Shown: positions 3,698 to 35,827 of the stretch, in pieces
Layout: each line of letters opens with the position of its first letter
Position numbering within the stretch: position 1 is the first letter of the stretch
Assembly: GCA_029006735.1 (NCBI GenBank)
Contig: JAQXGN010000016.1
Location: forward strand, 1 to 36,221
Direction: 5' to 3'
Source of the DNA: Caryophanales bacterium
GTDB taxonomy: Bacteria > Bacillota_I > Bacilli_A > RFN20 > CAG-449
Length of the DNA: 36,221 nucleotides
Made by a program: the position numbers and the translations under genes
Notes under the pieces: generated by a model
The model's input: the letters and a program-made list of their open reading frames with translations, nothing else
Database searches by the model: none
What the model was told of the DNA's origin: nothing

Positions 3698-3994
3698 TTA
3701 TCCCACCACCTTTGGAAGTTTAATTTGTCCATCAACAACTTCTTTTGCGTTTCTTAATACTTCCTCTTTAGTAATTGATTCTTCAAAAACATCTTCTCTT
3801 AAATATGTTGTTGTAACATCAAAAGGGAAGGTCATTGGGCTTATTTCATCTAACCCTTGAATATCTGCGAGTACTTCCATTTGCTTTGTCAAAATATCAA
3901 ATTCTCTTAATAAAACTTTGTATTGCTCTTCTGACATATCAAACATCAAATTATTCGCACATACTTTTAATAACTCTAAATCGTATTTAATCAT
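3698..3994 (-). CDS. gatC: Aspartyl/glutamyl-tRNA(Asn/Gln) amidotransferase subunit C
   Basis: 98-aa protein immediately upstream of gatA, with the GatC-like 'EISPMTFPFDVTTTYLREDV' region. Confidence 0.85.
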   Translation of the reverse strand: MIKYDLELLKVCANNLMFDMSEEQYKVLLREFDILTKQMEVLADIQGLDEISPMTFPFDVTTTYLREDVFEESITKEEVLRNAKEVVDGQIKLPKVVG

Positions 3995-4007
3995 AACTAT
4001 ACGCTCC

Positions 4008-6212
4008 TTATATTTTCTTAATTGAAATGTGATTACCTAAGAAAGTCTTCTTTCCTAAACTCGTATCATCAAATTGAATTACTATTAACTTATCAATAAT
4101 CTCTACAACAGTTCCTTTGCCATATTTAGCATGTTCTACTCGATCATTTACTCTCCATTTTTCAACTCCATTTGTTTGTGAAACAGTTACTGGATTCACT
4201 TTCTTTTTTACAAATCCTTGTGCAACATAGCTAGAATGGAATTGTTTTTCACCTCCAAATAATCTATCTCGATAATCTTCAGGCTTATATAAACCCGCTT
4301 CTATCAAAAAACGAGAAGGAGTCAAAGGTTGTTGTAAAACATAAGAATAATCTTGGTTGGATGAAACAAATAATCTCACCTTTGCTCGAGTAAATGCAAC
4401 ATAAGCAAGTCGACGTTCTTCTTCTATTCCTAATCGACTCTCAGAAACTGATTTTATTGAAGGAAAAATACCTTCTCCCATACCATAAACAAATACATAA
4501 TCATATTCTAATCCCTTTGCAGTATGAACTGTCATTAATGAAACAAAATCGCCTCCACTAACTTCATCTTGTGATGATTGTAGAATTGCATTATTTACAA
4601 AATCTTCAAAAGATAAGCTTTCATCTTCACTAAGGAATTGATCAACTGCGACTAATAATTCTTTAATGTTTTCTATTCTTTCTTCTGCGTTGTCATTTTC
4701 ATCTTTCAAGTAGTTAAAATAACCAATATTTTCAACAAAATCTTCTAAACTCTTTGATAAAATTCTTTCCTCGGATGCAATTAATTTTTCTAGGCTATTC
4801 ATCTGAACTATAACATTAAGCCAACTTGCTCTTTGTTTAGCGTTCAATGGACAATTATTGATATTTTCTTTTAAATAAATAAATTCTGGTTGACCCATTT
4901 CATTACATACTTGACGTAATCGATCAATACTAACTTGTCCAATTGATCTTTTTGGAACATTGATAATTCTTTCAAATGATACATCATCATATGGATTAAC
5001 TAATAAACGAAAATATGCGATCAAATCTTTAATCTCTCTTCTTTGATAGAACTTTGTTCCTCCGAAAACTCGATATGGAACTCGATACATACCTAATGCA
5101 GTTTCTATTTCTCGAGATAAATAATTCGCACGATATAAAACCGCGATATCTTTGTAATCTACATTTTGTTTTTTGTGTAAATCAAGAATAGTTGTTACTA
5201 GTTTAATCGCTTCTTCTTTAGTTGTTCTGGCATTAAAGAATTCAACTTTTTCCCCTTGCCCATTAAATGGAATTAAATCTTTTTTTACTCTTTCTTTATT
5301 GTTTTTTATTAAGCTATTGGAAATATCAAGAATTGATTTAGTTGAACGATAATTTTGATTTAACACAATAGTTTCTACTTCTACATTTTTAAAACAATGT
5401 AATAATTCTTCCTTAAAATCTAAAATTAATCGATGATTTGCGCCTCTCCAAGTATAAATAGTTTGGTCTGGATCACCTACAACATATAAGCTAGTATTTT
5501 CATTCAATAATAAAGTAATTAATTTAAATTGAACATCATTAATATCTTGAAATTCATCTATTAAAATGTGTTCTAACCTTCTACTATAATTATTTTTTAT
5601 ATTTGGATTATTTTCTAAAATATCAATTGTCATTAATAATAAATCATCAAAATCAAGACAATATGTTCTCTTTAAATATTCATCATATTCACGGAAATAT
5701 TCTTTAAAATCTCGTAATTTTTGATTTGGATAATCCTCATTCGCGATATCTTTGAATTGTAGTCCATATGTTTTTTTTCTACTAATCCATTCTAAACATT
5801 CCTTTATTTGAGGATCGCTTTTTGTTAATCCATGTTTAGTAGAACATATCTCTTTCATGATGCGTAATTGATCTTCTTCATCTAAGATAGAAAAATTATT
5901 TGGATAGTTAATATATTTTGCTTCAAAACGTAAAAATCTAGCACACCAAGCATGAATCGTTCCTAAAAATACATGACCGACATTATCTCCAACTAAATTT
6001 AAAACACGATTTTTAATTTCTTTTGCCGCTTTATTTGTAAAAGTAACAGCCATAATTGAGGAAGGATAGACTTTTTTTTCCAAAATCAAATGAGCAATAC
6101 GATAAGTCAATACTCTTGTTTTACCAGATCCTGCTCCTGCAATAACACGAATATACTTACTATCACTAATCACTCCTTGATATTGATTTGGATTCAAAGA
6201 TGATAGATTCAT
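4008..6212 (-). CDS. pcrA: UvrD/Rep-family DNA helicase, PcrA-like
   Basis: NPNQYQGV...AGAGSGKTRVLTYRIAHLI (Walker A), DEFQDINDVQ, VVGDPDQTIYTWRGA, LMTVHTAKGLEYDYVF; Tudor-like C-terminus. Likely start is M11 (6212), preceded by AAGGGAG. Confidence 0.95.
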   Translation of the reverse strand: MNLSSLNPNQYQGVISDSKYIRVIAGAGSGKTRVLTYRIAHLILEKKVYPSSIMAVTFTNKAAKEIKNRVLNLVGDNVGHVFLGTIHAWCARFLRFEAKYINYPNNFSILDEEDQLRIMKEICSTKHGLTKSDPQIKECLEWISRKKTYGLQFKDIANEDYPNQKLRDFKEYFREYDEYLKRTYCLDFDDLLLMTIDILENNPNIKNNYSRRLEHILIDEFQDINDVQFKLITLLLNENTSLYVVGDPDQTIYTWRGANHRLILDFKEELLHCFKNVEVETIVLNQNYRSTKSILDISNSLIKNNKERVKKDLIPFNGQGEKVEFFNARTTKEEAIKLVTTILDLHKKQNVDYKDIAVLYRANYLSREIETALGMYRVPYRVFGGTKFYQRREIKDLIAYFRLLVNPYDDVSFERIINVPKRSIGQVSIDRLRQVCNEMGQPEFIYLKENINNCPLNAKQRASWLNVIVQMNSLEKLIASEERILSKSLEDFVENIGYFNYLKDENDNAEERIENIKELLVAVDQFLSEDESLSFEDFVNNAILQSSQDEVSGGDFVSLMTVHTAKGLEYDYVFVYGMGEGIFPSIKSVSESRLGIEEERRLAYVAFTRAKVRLFVSSNQDYSYVLQQPLTPSRFLIEAGLYKPEDYRDRLFGGEKQFHSSYVAQGFVKKKVNPVTVSQTNGVEKWRVNDRVEHAKYGKGTVVEIIDKLIVIQFDDTSLGKKTFLGNHISIKKI

Positions 6213-25351: not shown

Positions 25352-28318
25352 TTATTCAGTTACTTTTTTCTTTTTTGGGAGAAATACAAATACACCCCAA
25401 GCAGCTAATGCTAAACAGATGACACCATCACCGACAAATAAGCCGACTTCCCATTTTGGCATATGAGTAATGAATTCACCTCTAATTGCATTTGAATTAG
25501 CAACAACATATAAAATATTTTTTGAACATTGTTGTAATACATTTACATCTGCTGCAGATGATGCATCTGCTTTCCAAACTCTAAATCCTGCAGATTCAAG
25601 GTTCAAATCTCCACCTGCATAAACCATATCTTTATTAACCATATGTGAACAAGTATTGAAATCGCAAATGACAAATCCTTCAAATCCCCATTCGTCACGA
25701 AGAATAGTAGTTAATAAACGATAATCTCCACCAGTCCATCTTTCACCAATTCTATTGAATGAAGACATTACTGATACTGGTTTTGTTTCTGCGTAATCAC
25801 CAAAGTAAGCTTTGTTATTTTCATTTGTGAAATCAGAAGTACCACCTTTAATTGCAATTTCAAATCCTTTTAAGTATACTTCTCTTAAAGTTTGTTCATC
25901 AAGCCATGTAACTAATCCATTGATTGATCTATGTGTTTCAGTTTCATTTACTGCAAAGTGTTTTAATGAAGTATAAACACCTTTTGAAGCAGTTCCTTTA
26001 GAAATTGCTGCAGACATTTGTCCAGAAAGGAATGGATCTTCAGAATAATATTCAAAGTTTCTTCCACCAAATGGAGAACGATGTAAATTTAATCCTGGAG
26101 CATACCAACCAGTATATGGTCTATTTCTTTCTGTTTCAGTTGAACCGATTAAACCTTCAATACCGACTGCAACACCCATATCGAATAAACGTTGAATGTT
26201 CCAAGTTGAAGCGGCAACAACTTCATTACAATATGAACATGTACCATTGAAAGTTGCTTTATCCATAAAGTTAACCCAACCGACTGGGCCATCTGTATTA
26301 TCTGTAGGTGGGACATTATAACGACTAATTTCAATTGTTTGGAAAGCACCTTTATTTACTAAATCATTCATTTCTTTAACTGTTAATTGTTCAATAAAAT
26401 CTTTCCATAATGGGTCATTATAATCTTTTCCAACTAAATCAGTAATCATAATATCTTTATTGTTATTTACAGTTGGCATTGTAGATAAATCATTTGGATT
26501 ATTTGGATTTGCTTCTTCACTCTTAATAGAACTAATCCATTCGTTAGTGATATTCCAGCCTTCTTTAATTTCTGAACCAACCATTTTTTCTTCATTAGTT
26601 CTTGTTTTAGGCCATGTGCCTTCAATATTTGAACGAGATAAAATACTTCCTAATTGTGAATCTGAATTTAATGACTTATCTTCATTATCAGAGAAAAGGT
26701 TTTTAACATCACAGTTTGTTACTGGATCTTTTTCATAACGAATATCTTCTTTTACACTTGCAGTGATAACTGCATCATTCATATCTTTTGCATGATGTGA
26801 GTCAGTTGATAATGTGAATTTATAATCATCTCCAGCCTCAACAACATAGCCTTTTTTACCACTAATTCCCTTATAATCATATGAAGCATATGTATATGGG
26901 CTATCAACAGTAATAATAACTGTATCTTCTTCTCCTGGTTGTAATTCTTTAGTTTTTGCGAAACCAACTAAGACTTTTGCACTCTTTTCTATGCCACCAT
27001 CATTGTAATGTGGAGTAACATATAATTCAACAACATCTCTTCCTGGATATGTACCAGTATTTTTTACCTTAACGCGATATTGCATTTCAGTATTCTTTTC
27101 AAGAGTTGTTGGAATACTTGCTTTATTAACTAATTCCCAAGAGAAAGTTGTATATGATTCACCATATCCAAATGGATAGACAACTGCTTCATCATAATTA
27201 ATGTGATTCTCTGCTGCAGCCGTTTCATAATAACGATATCCATAATAGATACCTTCCTCATAGTCAGCAAAATATACTTGAGTATCTACTGTACCACGAC
27301 CAACTTTTTCATAATATGCATCACCGCTAATTTTACCTACTGTGCCTAAAGCTCCACCAAAGTTATTCCATGTTGGATCTTTTGTAAAGTCAGCAGGATA
27401 AATATCAACTGTTTTTCCTGATGGAGAAATTAAAGAACCATCTAATCTTTTTCCTTTTAAGATTTCTCCAAGAGCAGACATACCTTCTGTACCATCAAAT
27501 CCAATCCAAAGAATTGAATCGACACCAGCATCTTCTTGTACATCTTTTAATTCCATTGCAGAAGCAGTATTCAATAATAAAACGACTTTTTCAAATCCTT
27601 TTCCTTTTACAGCATTAATTAAATCTTTTTCTGCTGGACGTAATTTTAGAATATGATCATCTGCAGATCTTGGTAAATCAGCACCTTCTCCACCGATACG
27701 AGTGATAACAATTAATGCTGCATCTTTATAGCCATCTGTAGTATTCCATACATCATCAGAATACTTATCAATTGGTGTTTCACCAACGAATGATTCAGAA
27801 ATTGCAACTGTGTTACCATTATCTAAATCAGAGTTATTTGCATCTCTACCTTTACCTGATCTATTTGGATCTTCGTAAAACTCTTTTAATCCTTTTGAAT
27901 ATTGGAAACCAGATTCTTCTAAAGATGTAAAAATATCTTTAATCTCTGAAGTATCAGCAGCGCCTGATCCTGATCCACCATATGCAATATTAACAGAGTT
28001 TTTACCAAAAACTGATACTTTAGCACCTTCTTTTAATGGAAGTGCTTTATCTTTATTTTTTAATAATGTAAATCCTTCTTCACAGATTTCTCTTGTGACT
28101 TTCTTACCATATTCTTTTGCATCTTTCTTAGTTTTGATATTTTCTGGAATTTCAAATCTAGATTTTTCTGTTCCTACAATTTCCATTGTTCCTCTATCAG
28201 AGAGAACAGTACAAATAATATCGTAAAAGGATTGTGTTGCAAGGACATTAACAACTACTCCGATAGATAATACGGCAGTAGTTGTAATAATCCAAGGAAT
28301 TAATTTTTTATTTTTCAT
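25352..28318 (-). CDS. GH3-family glycoside hydrolase, reversed domain order, hydrophobic segment at each terminus
   Basis: GH3_C-like part first (GFTLLKNKDKALPL..VFGKNSVNIAYGGSGSG), then Fn3-like, then the TIM-barrel motifs GRNFEYYSEDP, KHFAVNETETHR, GFVICDFNT; N-terminal and C-terminal transmembrane helices. Confidence 0.92.
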   Translation of the reverse strand: MKNKKLIPWIITTTAVLSIGVVVNVLATQSFYDIICTVLSDRGTMEIVGTEKSRFEIPENIKTKKDAKEYGKKVTREICEEGFTLLKNKDKALPLKEGAKVSVFGKNSVNIAYGGSGSGAADTSEIKDIFTSLEESGFQYSKGLKEFYEDPNRSGKGRDANNSDLDNGNTVAISESFVGETPIDKYSDDVWNTTDGYKDAALIVITRIGGEGADLPRSADDHILKLRPAEKDLINAVKGKGFEKVVLLLNTASAMELKDVQEDAGVDSILWIGFDGTEGMSALGEILKGKRLDGSLISPSGKTVDIYPADFTKDPTWNNFGGALGTVGKISGDAYYEKVGRGTVDTQVYFADYEEGIYYGYRYYETAAAENHINYDEAVVYPFGYGESYTTFSWELVNKASIPTTLEKNTEMQYRVKVKNTGTYPGRDVVELYVTPHYNDGGIEKSAKVLVGFAKTKELQPGEEDTVIITVDSPYTYASYDYKGISGKKGYVVEAGDDYKFTLSTDSHHAKDMNDAVITASVKEDIRYEKDPVTNCDVKNLFSDNEDKSLNSDSQLGSILSRSNIEGTWPKTRTNEEKMVGSEIKEGWNITNEWISSIKSEEANPNNPNDLSTMPTVNNNKDIMITDLVGKDYNDPLWKDFIEQLTVKEMNDLVNKGAFQTIEISRYNVPPTDNTDGPVGWVNFMDKATFNGTCSYCNEVVAASTWNIQRLFDMGVAVGIEGLIGSTETERNRPYTGWYAPGLNLHRSPFGGRNFEYYSEDPFLSGQMSAAISKGTASKGVYTSLKHFAVNETETHRSINGLVTWLDEQTLREVYLKGFEIAIKGGTSDFTNENNKAYFGDYAETKPVSVMSSFNRIGERWTGGDYRLLTTILRDEWGFEGFVICDFNTCSHMVNKDMVYAGGDLNLESAGFRVWKADASSAADVNVLQQCSKNILYVVANSNAIRGEFITHMPKWEVGLFVGDGVICLALAAWGVFVFLPKKKKVTE

Positions 28319-28331
28319 ATTTTTTCCTCAA

Positions 28332-29318
28332 TTATTTAATATAAATTGGAGCTTTGTTATATCCAGGAATGTTCTTATTTACATCAACAAAGCCTAATTG
28401 TGCTGTTGTTGTAATTTGAATGTTATCAATAACTGGAGCAACAGCAGCCATTGTTCCTAATGGAGCATCCGAATTATCTGTAATAAATGATATTGAAGTG
28501 ACTCCTTTATATAAAGTTAAAGAAGTTGTGATTGCAAATGTGTCCCAACCTACAGCACCCATTGAACCTTCTGCATTAATATCGATTGTTTTACAAATCC
28601 ATTCATCAATATAATAGCCTTTAAATTCTCCTTCTCCTGCTGGAGAATAATAATTTAAGAAGAATTCATCCCAGTTACCTAAAGCACCACCATCTTGATA
28701 AGAACGTAAGTCTTCATCATTTACTGGATCAACACGAATTGCATAGTTTTCTGGAGATAAACGAAGATTAAAGAATTCACCAGCACATCTTAAATCTAAT
28801 TTTGCATCCTTAACTTCTCTATCTGAGAAAATTAAGAAATTAACTGAGTTACCACTTCTATATAAATATGATACATAACCAACTGATTCATCATCTGTTA
28901 AAGCAGCCATTCCATTTTCACCTGCAGCACCTGAATAACCTGGACCTTGTTTATTTGATAAATTAGTGCACTCTGCTTCAAAAACATATGTTACTTGACC
29001 TGGTGCATGTGGAATAAAGTGTTCTGGTGCACCTATAACTTCTCCTCCACCAACATCACTTGTTGGCTTTTCCGATGTTGCTACATTACTTGTTGGTTTT
29101 TCCGATGTTGCTACATTACTTGTTGGTTTTTCTGATGTAGCTACATTACTTGTTGGTTTTTCCGATGTTGCTACATTACTTGTTGGCTTTTCTGTTGTTA
29201 CTTCGTTTGTATCTTGAGAGTTATTTGAACTAACATCACTAGTAACTGGTTTATCACAACCGAATAAAACAGTTGATAATAAAGCTACTCCTAATAGCAT
29301 TTTTGTTCCTTTTTTCAT
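28332..29318 (-). CDS. Lipoprotein with repetitive Thr/Ser/Pro linker and CBM6/35-like domain
   Basis: Lipobox-like LSTVLFGC; TSEKPTSNVA repeats; YVFEAECTNLSNKQGPGYSGAAGENG...VGYVSYLYRSGNSVNFLIFSD resembles CBM6/35 beta-sandwich modules. Confidence 0.7.
   Translation of the reverse strand: MKKGTKMLLGVALLSTVLFGCDKPVTSDVSSNNSQDTNEVTTEKPTSNVATSEKPTSNVATSEKPTSNVATSEKPTSNVATSEKPTSDVGGGEVIGAPEHFIPHAPGQVTYVFEAECTNLSNKQGPGYSGAAGENGMAALTDDESVGYVSYLYRSGNSVNFLIFSDREVKDAKLDLRCAGEFFNLRLSPENYAIRVDPVNDEDLRSYQDGGALGNWDEFFLNYYSPAGEGEFKGYYIDEWICKTIDINAEGSMGAVGWDTFAITTSLTLYKGVTSISFITDNSDAPLGTMAAVAPVIDNIQITTTAQLGFVDVNKNIPGYNKAPIYIK
29055..29207 (-). repeat. About five tandem copies of a 30-bp unit encoding TSEKPTSNVA
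   Basis: TTEKPTSNVA-(TSEKPTSNVA)x3-TSEKPTSDVG; nucleotide copies differ by a few mostly synonymous changes. Confidence 0.9.
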
Positions 29319-29408: not shown

Positions 29409-32400
29409 TTATTTTTCTTCTTTTTTCTTCTTTAAAGCGATAGCTGCTGCACCGAGAGCTAATGAGCCAAGAACTGTTGTTGTTGCTACGATAGAACCTG
29501 CGCATCCTTTTCCATCAACGCCATCTTTTCCATCTGTACCATCTTTACCGTCAGCTCCTGCAGGACCTTGTGGACCTGTTGCACCTGTGTCACCTTTGTC
29601 ACCTTTATCACCTTTTGGACCTGTTGCACCTGTATCACCTTTGTCACCTTTTGCACCATCTTGTCCATCTTGTCCAACGACTACACCAAGGTTAACAACT
29701 GTACCATCTTCGTATTCGATGACTAATTCGCCTGATTCGTTAATTGTTGTAGAAACAATACCACCATGTGATTCTGGTACTTGTACTTCTGGTAATTGAG
29801 CATAAACTGTAACTGTAGAAGTAAGATTGATATTACCTTGTCTCGATCCGTTTTGATAAGTACCTGTTTGTTTTACAGTGATTTTAGCATCTTCATTACC
29901 AACTTCAACAGTGATATTACCTGTTTCTGGATCATAAACGACACCTTCACCTGTGACTGTAACTTCATTTGTTAAGACTGGTCTTGAAGCGTTTCCGTTA
30001 TATGGATCACCGACTTTATAAATATTGACACCTATATCATTAATATTAACTGTAATTGTTGAGCCTGCTGCTGCTTTTAAGTTTTCAACAACTAAATCAA
30101 TTGTTGCTGTTCTTGCAAGCCAGTTATCAATAATAGCTTTAACTGTAATCTTACCTTTGAATTCTTCTTTAATAGAACCAGTGATTGCACCTGTTTTTTC
30201 ATCGACAACAATACCTTCTGGTAAGTTAACACCTTCGTATCTTACTGGTAATCCTTTTGTGACTTCTTCAGAAATAGCTGCTGATCCTTTAATTGCAGCA
30301 TTTGGAAGTGTTTTGATTGATGTTGTATCAGCAACATATGTTTCAATATTCTTACCATCTGCAGTAATTGTATCTAAGCCATTTTGCATGTTGTTTGAAT
30401 TTGCTGATGAATATAATACGTTCATAGCAGCATTTCTAATTGTAAAGTATTGTGTTGGAGATTCTGTACCAACTGCTGGATCACCTACTAAGTTACCAGC
30501 GAGAACGCCACCTTTACCTTCTCTTAATGAAGCATCCCAAACACCATCGATACTTTGTCTTGATTGTGAACCTTGTTGTGTTTCACTATATGAGATCTTT
30601 GTATTTAATAATAATTCACAACCACCACGTTGAATGTAGTTAGCATATGCCATACCACCCATGTAGTAGTCAGTAACACCTGCACCTTTGAAGCCCCATT
30701 CTTCTCTTAAGATTTCAACGTTCATCATGTAGTTACCAAATGATGGAACTGCACCTGTTGAGTTGAATGCTGTCATAACACCTGTTGCGTTACCATATTT
30801 TGTTGCATATTCGAAGTTCTTTAATTGATTTTCACGGAATGATTGTTCTGTACCGAATACTGCAATACCTTCTGTACGGTTTGTTTCTTGATCATTTAAT
30901 GAATAGTGTTTTAAGTAAACAACACAGCCTTTTTCTTGTGCGCCTCTTACAACTTCAGCTGCGATATATCCACCATGGACACCATCTTGTGAATAATATT
31001 CAAAGTTACGTCCTGCGAATGGAGAACGGTGTGTATTCATAGCTGGACCATACCAACCTGTAACACCAATCATTAATGATTCGTTACCAACAACTTTACC
31101 TTGTTTGTAAGCTAAATCTTTGTTAAATGTTGAAGCAACGTTTGTTTCACATACCCAAGCTAAACCAGATTTACCTTTTGCAACTGTACCCATAACACTA
31201 TTACTTGTTTTTAATTGTCCTGGACCATCTTGGTCAACTTGTAATTTCTTACCTACTGAAGCTAATGCTGGAGTACTATAACCACCATTTGCTAATAATG
31301 CTGCTAATTCATCATATGTTAATTGGTTCATGAACATTGTCCATGCTTCTCTACCTGTTTTTCCATTGAATACATGACCTGCTTGAGTAGTAACTACTTC
31401 GTCAGATTGTGGATCAATACCTGCCATTTCGAATAATTGAATAGCTGTTTTTCCATCAACTCTAGCTGTTTTATCAGTTGCTTGTGTCCAATCTGCTGGG
31501 ATATCAGCATTTGTTTTGTACCATGGGTCTGTTTCTCTATCATCTGATGCATTGTAGTAGTTGTTATATCTTAAGTATTCACCATTTGGTTTATCTTTTG
31601 ATTGACCTGATGCACCCATTGATGCACTACGTGTTTGTAAAGCACCAATTCTATTACCATAGTCTCTTTCTGCTTCGACTGGAGCTGTTGGGAATGTACC
31701 TGCAAAATCAGTTCTTGTCATTAGTTTCATTTTTGATTTTGAGTCTTCCTCTTTCATATTTAATAATGTATCGTAATCATCACCTTTTGATAAGACGTTA
31801 TATGATAAATCATTTGAAAGAGCACCAACAATCTTTTCACCTGTTTTATTGAATGCACCTGCATTTAATGTTACATCAACTGAGTCAATTACAGTATGTG
31901 AATCTTTTTGTAATCTTAATTGATATGCACCTGCTTCAAGTTCCCAACCTGCAAAGTTATTGTGGTTTGCATCGTTATAGTCAAATGATGCTAAATCACC
32001 AACTCTAACTTTTACATTAACGATTTGTTGTTCGCCTGGTCTTAATAATTTTGTTTTTCCAAATCCTACGAAGCATACTTCTGATTTTTCAATTTCATTA
32101 GTTGTGTATGGAGCGTGGTTATATAATTGAACTACTTCTTTACCTGCTACAGTACCAGTATTTTTAACTCTAACTGGAACATTAATGAAGTCATCCATTG
32201 ATGAAGCTGCATTTACTAATGTTGCAACTTCTGCACCTGTAATTGCTAAATGTTGTTCAAATTGTGAATAGCTTAAACCATAACCGAATGGGAATACAAC
32301 TTCTTCATCGTAATTGAATGATGAATCGACAGCTGCACGTGTTTCATAATATTTATAACCAAGATAAATACCTTCTTCATTTTCTGTACCATATGTAGTA

Positions 32401-33386
32401 CTTGTTTTTCCTTCTCCTTCAGCTGTTTTTGTATTGATATATTTATTTGAAGATCTAATTTCTTTACCTTCTTCATCAACGCCTAATACTACTTGAGTAT
32501 TATCGCCAAAGTTTTGCCATGTTGGATCTTTTTTGAAATCAGCTGGCCAAATATCTGATGTTCTACCTGATGGGTTAACTGTACCATTTAAGATTCTACC
32601 AACTGATTCGAAACCATTTTGTCCACCTTGGCCAACCCATAAAATAGCATCAACTGATAATTCACCATCATCAGCAACTAATTCACCAAGTTCCATTACA
32701 TTTGCAATGTTTAATAATACGACAACTTTTGAGAAGTGTTGTTTTGCATGTTTAATTAATTCTCTTTCATTGTCATCTAATTGTAAAACGTGATCTGATT
32801 TATCAGCGTGAGTAGCTACATTCTTTGTGAATAAGTCTGAACCTTCACCGCCAGCTCTACCAATTGTAATTACAGCTGCATCGTCATATAAATCATATGA
32901 TGATTCATCAGCAACTTTATCAACAGTATTATCAACAACAACTGCTGAAGCGCCACCAAACATACCTGCAGATACTGTAGCAGTAGCTCTATTTAAAATA
33001 GTGTTTTGCATGACTTTGTTATTGAGGTTAAAACCTGCAGCTAATAAGCCATCGACAATAGAAGAACCACTTGAAACTGAGCCTGATCCTGTACCACCAT
33101 ATACTGGTTCATATGATCTTGCACCAAATAATGTGATGTTATTACCACTAAGTGGTAATGCGTTATTTTTGTTTTTTAATAAAACCATTGATTCATCTGC
33201 GATTTCAATGTTTAAACTTTTAGCGTAGTTTTCTAACTCTTCAAAAGTTGTGAAATCAGGATGAAAACCTAATTGGTTACTAGCAGCATATACTCCATTT
33301 GCTGCACTTACTGTTCCAGCGCCTGCCATTAAGAAAGCTAATGAAGCAACTGCAACTGCTAAGATTTTGTTAGTAGTTTTTTTCAT
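29409..33386 (-). CDS. Secreted GH3-family glycoside hydrolase, reversed domain order, with Ig-like domains, collagen-like stalk and C-terminal anchor
   Basis: Signal peptide MKKTTNKILAVAVASLAFLMAGAGTVSAA (start 33386; the ORF opens at 33425). GH3_C-like VLLKNKNNALPL..GGTGSGSVSSG precedes barrel motifs AGRNFEYYSQDG, LKHYSLNDQETNR, GVTDYY; 19 Gly-X-Y triplets; tail GCAGSIVATTTVLGSLALGAAAIALKKKKEEK. Confidence 0.9.
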   Translation of the reverse strand: MKKTTNKILAVAVASLAFLMAGAGTVSAANGVYAASNQLGFHPDFTTFEELENYAKSLNIEIADESMVLLKNKNNALPLSGNNITLFGARSYEPVYGGTGSGSVSSGSSIVDGLLAAGFNLNNKVMQNTILNRATATVSAGMFGGASAVVVDNTVDKVADESSYDLYDDAAVITIGRAGGEGSDLFTKNVATHADKSDHVLQLDDNERELIKHAKQHFSKVVVLLNIANVMELGELVADDGELSVDAILWVGQGGQNGFESVGRILNGTVNPSGRTSDIWPADFKKDPTWQNFGDNTQVVLGVDEEGKEIRSSNKYINTKTAEGEGKTSTTYGTENEEGIYLGYKYYETRAAVDSSFNYDEEVVFPFGYGLSYSQFEQHLAITGAEVATLVNAASSMDDFINVPVRVKNTGTVAGKEVVQLYNHAPYTTNEIEKSEVCFVGFGKTKLLRPGEQQIVNVKVRVGDLASFDYNDANHNNFAGWELEAGAYQLRLQKDSHTVIDSVDVTLNAGAFNKTGEKIVGALSNDLSYNVLSKGDDYDTLLNMKEEDSKSKMKLMTRTDFAGTFPTAPVEAERDYGNRIGALQTRSASMGASGQSKDKPNGEYLRYNNYYNASDDRETDPWYKTNADIPADWTQATDKTARVDGKTAIQLFEMAGIDPQSDEVVTTQAGHVFNGKTGREAWTMFMNQLTYDELAALLANGGYSTPALASVGKKLQVDQDGPGQLKTSNSVMGTVAKGKSGLAWVCETNVASTFNKDLAYKQGKVVGNESLMIGVTGWYGPAMNTHRSPFAGRNFEYYSQDGVHGGYIAAEVVRGAQEKGCVVYLKHYSLNDQETNRTEGIAVFGTEQSFRENQLKNFEYATKYGNATGVMTAFNSTGAVPSFGNYMMNVEILREEWGFKGAGVTDYYMGGMAYANYIQRGGCELLLNTKISYSETQQGSQSRQSIDGVWDASLREGKGGVLAGNLVGDPAVGTESPTQYFTIRNAAMNVLYSSANSNNMQNGLDTITADGKNIETYVADTTSIKTLPNAAIKGSAAISEEVTKGLPVRYEGVNLPEGIVVDEKTGAITGSIKEEFKGKITVKAIIDNWLARTATIDLVVENLKAAAGSTITVNINDIGVNIYKVGDPYNGNASRPVLTNEVTVTGEGVVYDPETGNITVEVGNEDAKITVKQTGTYQNGSRQGNINLTSTVTVYAQLPEVQVPESHGGIVSTTINESGELVIEYEDGTVVNLGVVVGQDGQDGAKGDKGDTGATGPKGDKGDKGDTGATGPQGPAGADGKDGTDGKDGVDGKGCAGSIVATTTVLGSLALGAAAIALKKKKEEK
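29505..29675 (-). repeat. Collagen-like region, 19 consecutive Gly-X-Y triplets
   Basis: GQDGQDGAKGDKGDTGATGPKGDKGDKGDTGATGPQGPAGADGKDGTDGKDGVDGKG. Confidence 0.95.
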
Positions 33387-33435
33387 ATTTTCTCCTTTTT
33401 GTATTAGCCACGAACGTGTGCCCATACGTAGCTCG

Positions 33436-33833: not shown

Positions 33834-35123
33834 TTAATCTAATGGGAATAATAAATTGAGAATAAATATATTTCCATCCACTTGATAATCAAATATTCCT
33901 TTATATTTTCCTGTAATATATTGAATACTTTTTAATCCAATACCATGATTTACTTTATCTTGTTTAGAAGTAACAATATTCTTACCGTTTAATAATAATG
34001 ATTCTTTGACAAAACTATTTTCAACATGAATTGTCAACATCTTTCCTTTTGAAGAAATACTAAACTTAATAAACCTCGAATCTTTTTCATCAACGTTTAA
34101 AACTGCTTCAAGAGCATTATTTAATGCATTACCTAATAGAGAGAATAAATCTGCTTTAGAAAATATATCTAATTTAGATTCATCTACCATCACAGAAAAA
34201 TAAACATTCTCTTCTAAGCATCTTAAGTTAGTTTCAATAACAACTGTTTGAAGAACCTCATTATTATATTGGAAAGTGTTATCATAGTTTTGAACTGCAT
34301 TCTTTAATTCCAATAAGAATTCTTTATTCTGTGGATCATTATCATATTTTTCAAAGATGTTTTTAACATCATGCAATTTCATATTAATGATTTTTAAACT
34401 CTCATCGCTTAATTTAGAATTCTTTTGATTAGATTCAATTATTTTTTCTAATGTTTTTTTATCACGAGCTAAAATATCTACATCAAAAATACCATATAGT
34501 GTGAATAAAAGAATAACACAAAGTAAGATTCCATATACCTTTACACTCTTAGTATCTTGTCGTTCTCCAAACATCATGTAACAACTTAATAAATAGACAA
34601 CAGAGAAAGATACAACCATCAAAATAACAAATAAAATATTATTTGTTCTTTCTGTCAATGCGGTCATTCTTTCATTCTTAGTTCTACGAGTAAATAAGAA
34701 ATATGATAGAACTAAGAGAATTATAAATAATGCATAAGCGATAATATTATTAACTACTGTAGGTAGATTAGAATCAAAAAAAGAAAGAATTAAGTAATAT
34801 AATCGATCATATAAATGCTGCATCAAATATCCAGATAGGCCAAAGAAAAATGCATATTTAATCCTTATTCTAAAGCATAAGAATAATCCAAAAAATATTA
34901 ATACAATAAATACTAAGAAATAAAGATTTAGCCACCCTAGTGTCATTGATCTCATTACACCTTTAGTATTCAAAAAAACTACTGCTAGAGCGTATATTAA
35001 AGAAAATGATATACATCTTATCCAAAAATACTTTCTTTTTGGCATATATATCACAAAAATAGATGTAAAAATAAATAATGCGATTGAAAATCGAAATATA
35101 GTAAAAAAGCTTAAAAATGTCAT
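33834..35123 (-). CDS. Sensor histidine kinase, AgrC/GHKL-like, multi-pass N-terminal sensor
   Basis: Multiple N-terminal hydrophobic segments; LHDVKNIFEKY (HDxKN H-box); LLGNALNNALEAV (N-box); HGIGLKSI (G-box). Confidence 0.9.
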   Translation of the reverse strand: MTFLSFFTIFRFSIALFIFTSIFVIYMPKRKYFWIRCISFSLIYALAVVFLNTKGVMRSMTLGWLNLYFLVFIVLIFFGLFLCFRIRIKYAFFFGLSGYLMQHLYDRLYYLILSFFDSNLPTVVNNIIAYALFIILLVLSYFLFTRRTKNERMTALTERTNNILFVILMVVSFSVVYLLSCYMMFGERQDTKSVKVYGILLCVILLFTLYGIFDVDILARDKKTLEKIIESNQKNSKLSDESLKIINMKLHDVKNIFEKYDNDPQNKEFLLELKNAVQNYDNTFQYNNEVLQTVVIETNLRCLEENVYFSVMVDESKLDIFSKADLFSLLGNALNNALEAVLNVDEKDSRFIKFSISSKGKMLTIHVENSFVKESLLLNGKNIVTSKQDKVNHGIGLKSIQYITGKYKGIFDYQVDGNIFILNLLFPLD

Positions 35124-35827
35124 CTTAAATTCCCCAAATATGCATCTAGTTTTTCTAAGAATTCTTTCTTTTTATGACGAGAGAATAATAGATTATCTCC
35201 ATTCACTACGACTTGTGTTTTATCAAATTTTTCTACATAATTCATATTTACTAAATAACAATTATTGCATAAAGCAAAATGCGTATTACCTAGTTCTTCG
35301 GTGATTACATATAAAGGCCCTTTTACTTTAAAAGAATCTTTAATTGTATGAACAGTTAAATAACTACCATTAACTTCAATATAAGTAATGTCCATTATAT
35401 CAACAACAACGAACCCATCTTTTGTTTTTAATTTAATCTTTTTCTTCTTATATTTTTCTGAAACAGCAACAATTCTATCCATTTTCATTTCGAATGTTTT
35501 ATAATCAACTGGCTTAATAATATAATCCATTGCGTTAACTTCATAGCCTTTGATAACAAACTTTTTAAGATTAGATACAAATACAATAGTAACAAATGAA
35601 TCTTTTTCACGAATCAATTTAGCTAACGATAATCCATCTAAATGAGGCATATCAACATCAAGAAAAATAACATCATAATTAGAATCAAAGTCATCTAAAA
35701 AAGCAAGGCTACTATTAAAAACTGAAACGTGGCAAAAAATAGAATGTTCACTCTCGTATTTTTTGATAAAAGACTCTAAACAAGTTGACATTTCTAATTC
35801 ATCATCGACAACTGCTATTTTAATCAC
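35120..35827 (-). CDS. LytTR-family response regulator
   Basis: Receiver IKIAVVDDELEMS...VIFLDVDMPHLDGLSLA...INYIIKP-type region plus LytTR domain (VDIMDITYIEVNGSYLTVHT); GTG start with GGAGG. Confidence 0.92.
   Translation of the reverse strand: MIKIAVVDDELEMSTCLESFIKKYESEHSIFCHVSVFNSSLAFLDDFDSNYDVIFLDVDMPHLDGLSLAKLIREKDSFVTIVFVSNLKKFVIKGYEVNAMDYIIKPVDYKTFEMKMDRIVAVSEKYKKKKIKLKTKDGFVVVDIMDITYIEVNGSYLTVHTIKDSFKVKGPLYVITEELGNTHFALCNNCYLVNMNYVEKFDKTQVVVNGDNLLFSRHKKKEFLEKLDAYLGNLR

Follow-up and report, generated by a model that had tools for sequence, protein, structure and literature searches.

The closest described relatives of the glycosidase analyzed here are GlyA1 and a Paenibacillus enzyme (PDB 5k6l-o, 5wug, and 5wvp; PMC5104943), which share with it a domain order of sandwich domain first, Fn3-like domain in the middle, and TIM barrel second. 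This permuted topology of GH3 enzymes is described for GlyA1 and linked to gut microbes in PMC5104943. Neither GlyA1 nor the Paenibacillus enzyme is known to have a collagen stalk, a pair of Ig-like domains, or a tail of the GCxGS type, and GlyA1 has a C-terminal domain of another kind than that of the protein studied here. Surface proteins with an uninterrupted Gly-X-Y rod and a match to the Pfam Collagen model are represented by Scl1/Scl2, Lcl, and BclA. In contrast to these, the protein described below carries a glycosidase instead of an adhesin or spore head, has no LPXTG motif, and combines a short rod with a different cap motif. Among enzymes that act on polysaccharides, a collagen-like segment is present in the phage-type hyaluronidase 6x3m, which was matched by our stalk with an E value of 3.7e-6 that largely reflects collagen composition; the catalytic domain of this hyaluronidase is unrelated to GH3, and we know of no GCxGS tail in it.

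Two further systems resemble the C-terminal part of the protein. MYXO-CTERM/myxosortase (PMC11980579) likewise comprises a tripartite C-terminal signal with an invariant Cys, a hydrophobic helix, and a basic end, together with a CPBP-family protease as partner (in our case by association only), but occurs in a different phylum and with a motif different from that of the putative GCxGS sorting tail. In periscope proteins and in the stalks of trimeric autotransporters (PMC9704523), a head is likewise projected from the surface on a rod of variable length. A periscope protein consists of folded domains arrayed along a single chain and is typically sortase-anchored in Gram-positives (PMC9704523), whereas here collagen, a coiled coil, or a linker stands ahead of a sortase-independent tail.

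Domain organization and genomic setting

We analyzed a window, i.e., the whole stretch of 36,221 nucleotides on contig JAQXGN010000016.1 of a Caryophanales bacterium (GCA_029006735.1), in which a GH3 gene with a collagen-like stretch had been pointed out in an earlier note (Table 1). Its mechanically called ORF extends from 29409 to 33425 on the minus strand (1338 aa), but the true start is likely the ATG at 33386, which has an AAGGAG sequence five bases ahead of it. Pfam assigned GH3_C to residues 80 to 386, an Fn3-like domain to residues 430 to 509, and GH3_N to residues 745 to 926, which bears out the proposed GH3 identity and places the two GH3 domains in reversed (permuted, GlyA1-type) order. 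An AlphaFold2 model of residues 53 to 1250 (mean pLDDT, 78; pTM, 0.82) had as its six best PDB fold matches the permuted GH3 entries named above. By alignment only, both catalytic residues appear to be present. The proposed acid/base Glu194 (32844 to 32846) aligned with the Glu of the SGEG motif of TnBgl3B (2x40), known as the catalytic acid/base of that enzyme, and the putative nucleophile Asp919 (30669 to 30671), invariant across the GH3 alignments, aligned with the Asp whose position is occupied by Ala in 2x42. NCBIfam equivalogs all scored far under their cutoffs. The Ig-like region was modeled as beta strands; a Pfam He_PIG domain was detected at this position in relatives, not in the window protein itself.

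Table 1. Positions of the features at the stalked GH3 locus, in coordinates of the window
Feature	Position	Strand	Basis
Two-component pair: GHKL kinase (33834-35123) and LytTR regulator (35120-35827)	33834-35827	minus, upstream	Pfam
Permuted GH3 glycosidase with collagen stalk (probable start at 33386)	29409-33386	minus	ORF, AAGGAG ahead of the ATG, Pfam
Putative signal peptide MKKTTNKILAVAVASLAFLMAGAGTVSA	33303-33386	minus	translation, by eye
GH3 alpha/beta-sandwich domain PF01915, first in order	32268-33188	minus	Pfam; alignment with TnBgl3B (2x40)
Fn3-like domain PF14310	31899-32138	minus	Pfam
GH3 TIM-barrel domain PF00933, second in order	30648-31193	minus	Pfam
Pair of Ig-like regions made of beta strands (relatives: He_PIG-like)	29805-30245	minus	AlphaFold2 strands; He_PIG in relatives
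Beta-meander motif of three strands around INESGELVIEYEDGTVVNLGVV, immediately ahead of the collagen	29682-29759	minus	AlphaFold2; motif pattern
Collagen-like stalk, 19 Gly-X-Y triplets	29505-29675	minus	run count, Pfam
45-bp tandem duplication	29568-29657 (units 29613-29657 and 29568-29612)	minus	unit alignment, TRF
C-terminal GCxGS tail resembling an anchor or sorting signal, composed of KGCAGSI, a hydrophobic segment, and KKKKEEK; Cys1308	29412-29510	minus	tail searches, alignment
Lipoprotein with LFGC lipobox, a linker of TSEKPTSNVA repeats, and a weakly supported CBM35-like domain at the C terminus	28332-29318	minus	conserved order, fold search, repeats
Second permuted GH3, C-terminal hydrophobic segment, no GCxGS tail	25352-28318	minus	Pfam, conserved order

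Near the C terminus, residues 1251 to 1307 form the 19 uninterrupted Gly-X-Y triplets reported earlier, at exactly the positions given for them. When the protein was shuffled 1000 times, runs with Gly at every third residue reached at most 6, and the stretch matched Pfam Collagen (PF01391) with 35.6 bits against a cutoff of 27.2 (E = 7.8e-9), the sole match to this model in the 1.49-Mb host genome. The best NCBIfam matches of the segment were the adhesins SclA (41.8 versus 400 bits required), SclB (34.7 versus 325 bits), and Lcl, all far under their cutoffs. The internal 45-bp duplication is real as well: its adjacent units, GAKGDKGDTGATGPK (29613 to 29657) and GDKGDKGDTGATGPQ (29568 to 29612), are identical at 41 of 45 positions, and TRF returned a period of 45 with 1.9 copies and 95% matches. 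Among homologues, the stalk ranged from 12 to 35 triplets; the other genomes of the host genus lack this gene. The collagen indeed lies, as had been described, between the Ig-like region and a membrane anchor, which is made up of KGCAGSI, a hydrophobic segment, and KKKKEEK. The earlier note mentioned neither the GCxGS tail nor the operon nor the exchangeable nature of the spacer.

In the model, the sequence INESGELVIEYEDGTVVNLGVVV formed the three strands of the beta-meander motif. A pattern of this motif was found ahead of the last collagen run in 18/18 collagen-plus-tail proteins versus 9/152 other collagen runs, a count that is only descriptive since the pattern was built from the same 18-protein set. 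The cassette order common to the GH3-collagen proteins is beta-meander motif, collagen, GCxGS, hydrophobic stretch, and Lys/Arg. Identification of the motif as a beta-propeller blade was dropped, as the matches to PDB "Bagel" designs were sums of weak 1- to 7-bit pieces over identical repeats. A search for phage relatives of the cap-plus-collagen unit, using an approximate query (two residues altered towards the family consensus) with the low-complexity filter on, retrieved none, which is a weak negative given these settings.

The stalked GH3 gene is the first of an operon in which it is followed by the lipoprotein gene and then by the membrane GH3 gene. The three genes stand in this order at L246 (48, 42, and 65% identity), L074, L071, and L072, as well as at another locus of the host genome (L241), where the spacer is of the PDTP type. 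A kinase and a regulator similar to the host pair adjoin the locus in L246, and the kinase only in L071. No Pfam domain was detected in the window copy of the lipoprotein; its model was poor (pLDDT, 48), and the best hit of a fold search was CBM35 (E = 1.3e-3), which we treat only as a lead towards a CBM35-like C-terminal part. The linker of the lipoprotein (29053 to 29199) consists of about five 30-bp repeats (TSEKPTSNVA) with 92% matches, and its length may therefore differ between strains.

Recurrence of the GH3-collagen fusion

Among the 279 genomes analyzed from this order, 112 had a Pfam Collagen match at an E value of ≤0.001. Regions around strong matches were fetched, with long ORFs favored, and 62 collagen ORFs were sorted. 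Forty of these showed a lipobox, then collagen, and then a domain, so that the collagen again adjoins the membrane anchor, whereas 17 (window included) carried collagen near the C terminus followed by a GC.[GSA][SAT] tail; the remaining 5, which were left unassigned, include a GH3-collagen protein cut by a contig end (L113). All 12 C-terminal collagen ORFs scanned with Pfam turned out to be GH3s with collagen. Together with the window protein and five further ones, this yielded 18 GH3-collagen proteins from 13 genomes and three families of the order, which were aligned, and every C-terminally placed collagen stalk that was scanned or aligned sat on a permuted GH3. The fusion is thus a recurrent architecture of the order, not a curiosity. 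Outside the order, two of 80 loci found by GH3 motifs had collagen (L132 and L149, both from Clostridia), and the sequence of another (L205) ended just behind the cap motif. Uniqueness of the fusion was therefore rejected. No further GH3-collagen-tail cassette was found in a phylum sample of 392 genomes, nor was a description of the combination in the open-access papers searched. The earlier note called it unusual for a collagen-like stalk to be fused to a glycoside hydrolase, which holds for the phylum at large, but within the order the fusion recurs.

Several additional observations were made in this survey. One genome (G047) encoded four GH3-collagen proteins (L071 to L074) on three contigs. 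The host genome gave 18 matches to the window GH3 (several per protein) versus 0 to 2 in seven other genomes of its genus (G001 to G007); GH3 genes have been either expanded or gained in the host or lost in its genus relatives. An ORF of 1037 residues (L102; G084:C11) contained ∼145 Gly-X-Y triplets, with neither a lipobox nor a GC.GS tail recognized. At L052 (G166:C4:115940), collagen-like sequence extended over two short overlapping ORFs, possibly by a frameshift.

Spacer exchange and oligomeric state of the stalk

In other proteins, the slot before the GC.GS tail was occupied by PDTP (PDTPDTP) or Ser/Thr-rich linkers or by heptad-like sequences (L249 and L254 to L257); heptad power in the five candidate coiled coils gave P values of 0.010, 0.026, 0.048, 0.085, and 0.158. 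In a quickly built GH3 tree with 49 rows and no bootstraps, the collagen label changed 8 times, 7 of them forced by starred branches. The count may be one too high because L205, whose sequence ends ahead of the stalk, was scored without collagen. L074 (collagen) and L256 (coiled coil) were sisters at 100, and the window protein together with L082 (collagen) was sister to L131 (no collagen), also at 100. These label changes indicate that the spacer was swapped repeatedly while enzyme and anchor were kept. Since collagen interchanges with other spacers on the tree, the slot is a stalk.

Within the collagen of the 18 proteins, Lys/Arg at Y was followed by Asp/Glu at the next X in 108 of 109 cases (permutation mean, 52; maximum, 65), and the pairing was weaker at lag 2 (84/109) and lag 3 (60/104). 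The lipoprotein-class collagens behaved alike, with Asp/Glu after 260 of 271 Lys/Arg residues at Y and lower values at lags 2 and 3. Because collagen triplets grow by duplication, these counts are not independent; if only distinct contexts were considered, the values were 68/69 for the 18 stalks and 136/141 for the lipoprotein class. Lys-Asp/Glu charge pairs are described to stabilize triple helices (PMC8890135). The charge order supports the view that the collagen has been selected for a triple helix, i.e., for a trimer. Trimerization is indirectly supported by the near-obligatory K-G-D/E pairs and by replacement of the collagen with putative coiled coils, and the stalk of the window protein is plausibly, and probably, trimeric. 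Triplet periodicity alone could be explained by repeat growth, and a helix of 19 triplets that lacks hydroxyproline might have no more than marginal stability. Several homologues carry PDTP or Ser/Thr linkers and thus no oligomerizing stalk, so that oligomerization is not essential for the family.

The use of such linkers by paralogues with the same tail would also suit a passive role, in which the collagen is a monomeric, flexible, hydrophilic spacer that gives reach, and Gly-X-Y a by-product of repeat expansion; the 45-bp duplication, which shows slippage-type growth, points in the same direction. However, a plain linker needs neither the long unbroken runs found in all 18 stalks nor their K-G-D/E pairs, and heptad-like sequences occupy the slot as well, which makes a passive spacer unlikely. 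Far less credible is that the collagen acts as a ligand-binding adhesin element of the Scl or Lcl kind, tethering the cell to host or plant material with the GH3 as a passenger. SclA, SclB, and Lcl were the top NCBIfam matches, albeit far under their cutoffs, but the C-terminal collagens examined in the order carry GH3 and adjoin the anchor rather than forming the distal tip, and coiled coils or linkers can replace collagen in this slot.

We favor as likely that the window protein, a GH3 of the GlyA1 type, is an exo-glycosidase that is secreted and kept at the surface by its C-terminal cassette, with the collagen rod as a stalk that most likely forms a homotrimeric triple helix. In this arrangement, the cassette, consisting of the beta-meander cap, the rigid 19-triplet rod, and the GCxGS tail with its hydrophobic segment, would hold the enzyme at the cell, and the rod as a homotrimer would carry three catalytic heads away from the membrane. 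Collagen rises by 0.286 nm per residue, from which a projection of ∼16 nm would be expected. The stalked GH3, the CBM35-like lipoprotein, and the membrane-anchored GH3 might together trim oligosaccharides, their presumed substrate, at the surface.

The GCxGS tail and a candidate CPBP protease

Gly, Cys, Gly, and Ser of the GC.GS motif were invariant in 20 aligned tails, which thus represent a tripartite tail with an invariant Cys. GCxGS-type tails were detected in 85 of the 279 genomes of the order (at an E value of 0.01), a few assignments being weak (e.g., G039, E = 0.002). They were also found on unrelated large proteins, such as a 2357-residue BspA-like repeat protein (labeled by eye). Anchoring via LPXTG and sortase was rejected, since the window tail contains no LPXTG and no PF04203 sortase was found in the host genome; across the order, 4/279 genomes had a sortase, none of them among the 85 tail-bearing ones. 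For five tails searched against NCBIfam, no Cys-CTERM model (MYXO, JDVT, and similar) was listed, and the generic LPXTG_anchor model reached its cutoff for one, itself without LPXTG.

The host genome encodes two CPBP proteases. One of them (L292) was discarded as a specific partner, as its homologues occurred in 244/279 genomes. The other (L293:1354-2094, equivalent to positions 3703 to 4443 of host contig 33) had homologues at an E value of ≤1e-15 in 23 genomes, all 23 of which belong to the 85 tail-bearing genomes. The probability of this co-occurrence by random draw was 1.3e-13, or ∼6e-9 with stratification by genus, for which five genera were large enough, with the sizes of two of them taken from list numbering. 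EExxxR was kept in 21/21 aligned members of the L293 subfamily; HxxxN was present in most of them, whereas three had Asp in place of the Asn. In G080 and G089, protease and tail gene lie within ∼7 kb of each other. Since the test was made after the tails had been seen, some tail calls are weak, kinship within genera remains in the statistic, and 62 tail genomes had no match to the subfamily at an E value of 1e-15, we regard this as association only. Together with the analogy to myxosortase (PMC11980579), the co-occurrence makes the L293 subfamily a candidate for the processing enzyme of the GCxGS tail.

Alternatively, the tail might be an ordinary transmembrane anchor without sorting function, its GCxGS motif being incidental. 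It ends in a hydrophobic segment and positive charges like any C-terminal anchor, and in the GH3 encoded downstream, the C-terminal hydrophobic segment is not accompanied by the motif. Against this speak the invariance of GC.GS in the 20 aligned tails, the presence of such tails on GH3s, the BspA-like protein, and others in 85 of the 279 genomes, and the detection of one CPBP subfamily in tail-bearing genomes only, so that an ordinary anchor is a serious possibility that falls somewhat short of probable. With similar reserve, we tentatively propose that sortase-less gut bacteria of the order use an unnamed GCxGS-type sorting signal and a dedicated CPBP-family intramembrane protease, with the Cys probably lipidated, for displaying large surface enzymes on exchangeable oligomerizing stalks, either collagen triple helices or coiled coils. 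In the window protein, the tail would then be handled by a CPBP protease.

The stalked GH3 provides a recurrent natural case in which a short bacterial collagen rod carries a glycosidase, and comparison with homologues that have a coiled coil or a linker in place of the rod allows asking what a triple helix adds. Moreover, the GCxGS tail and its candidate CPBP partner point to an anchoring route in a large bacterial group that is nearly without sortase.
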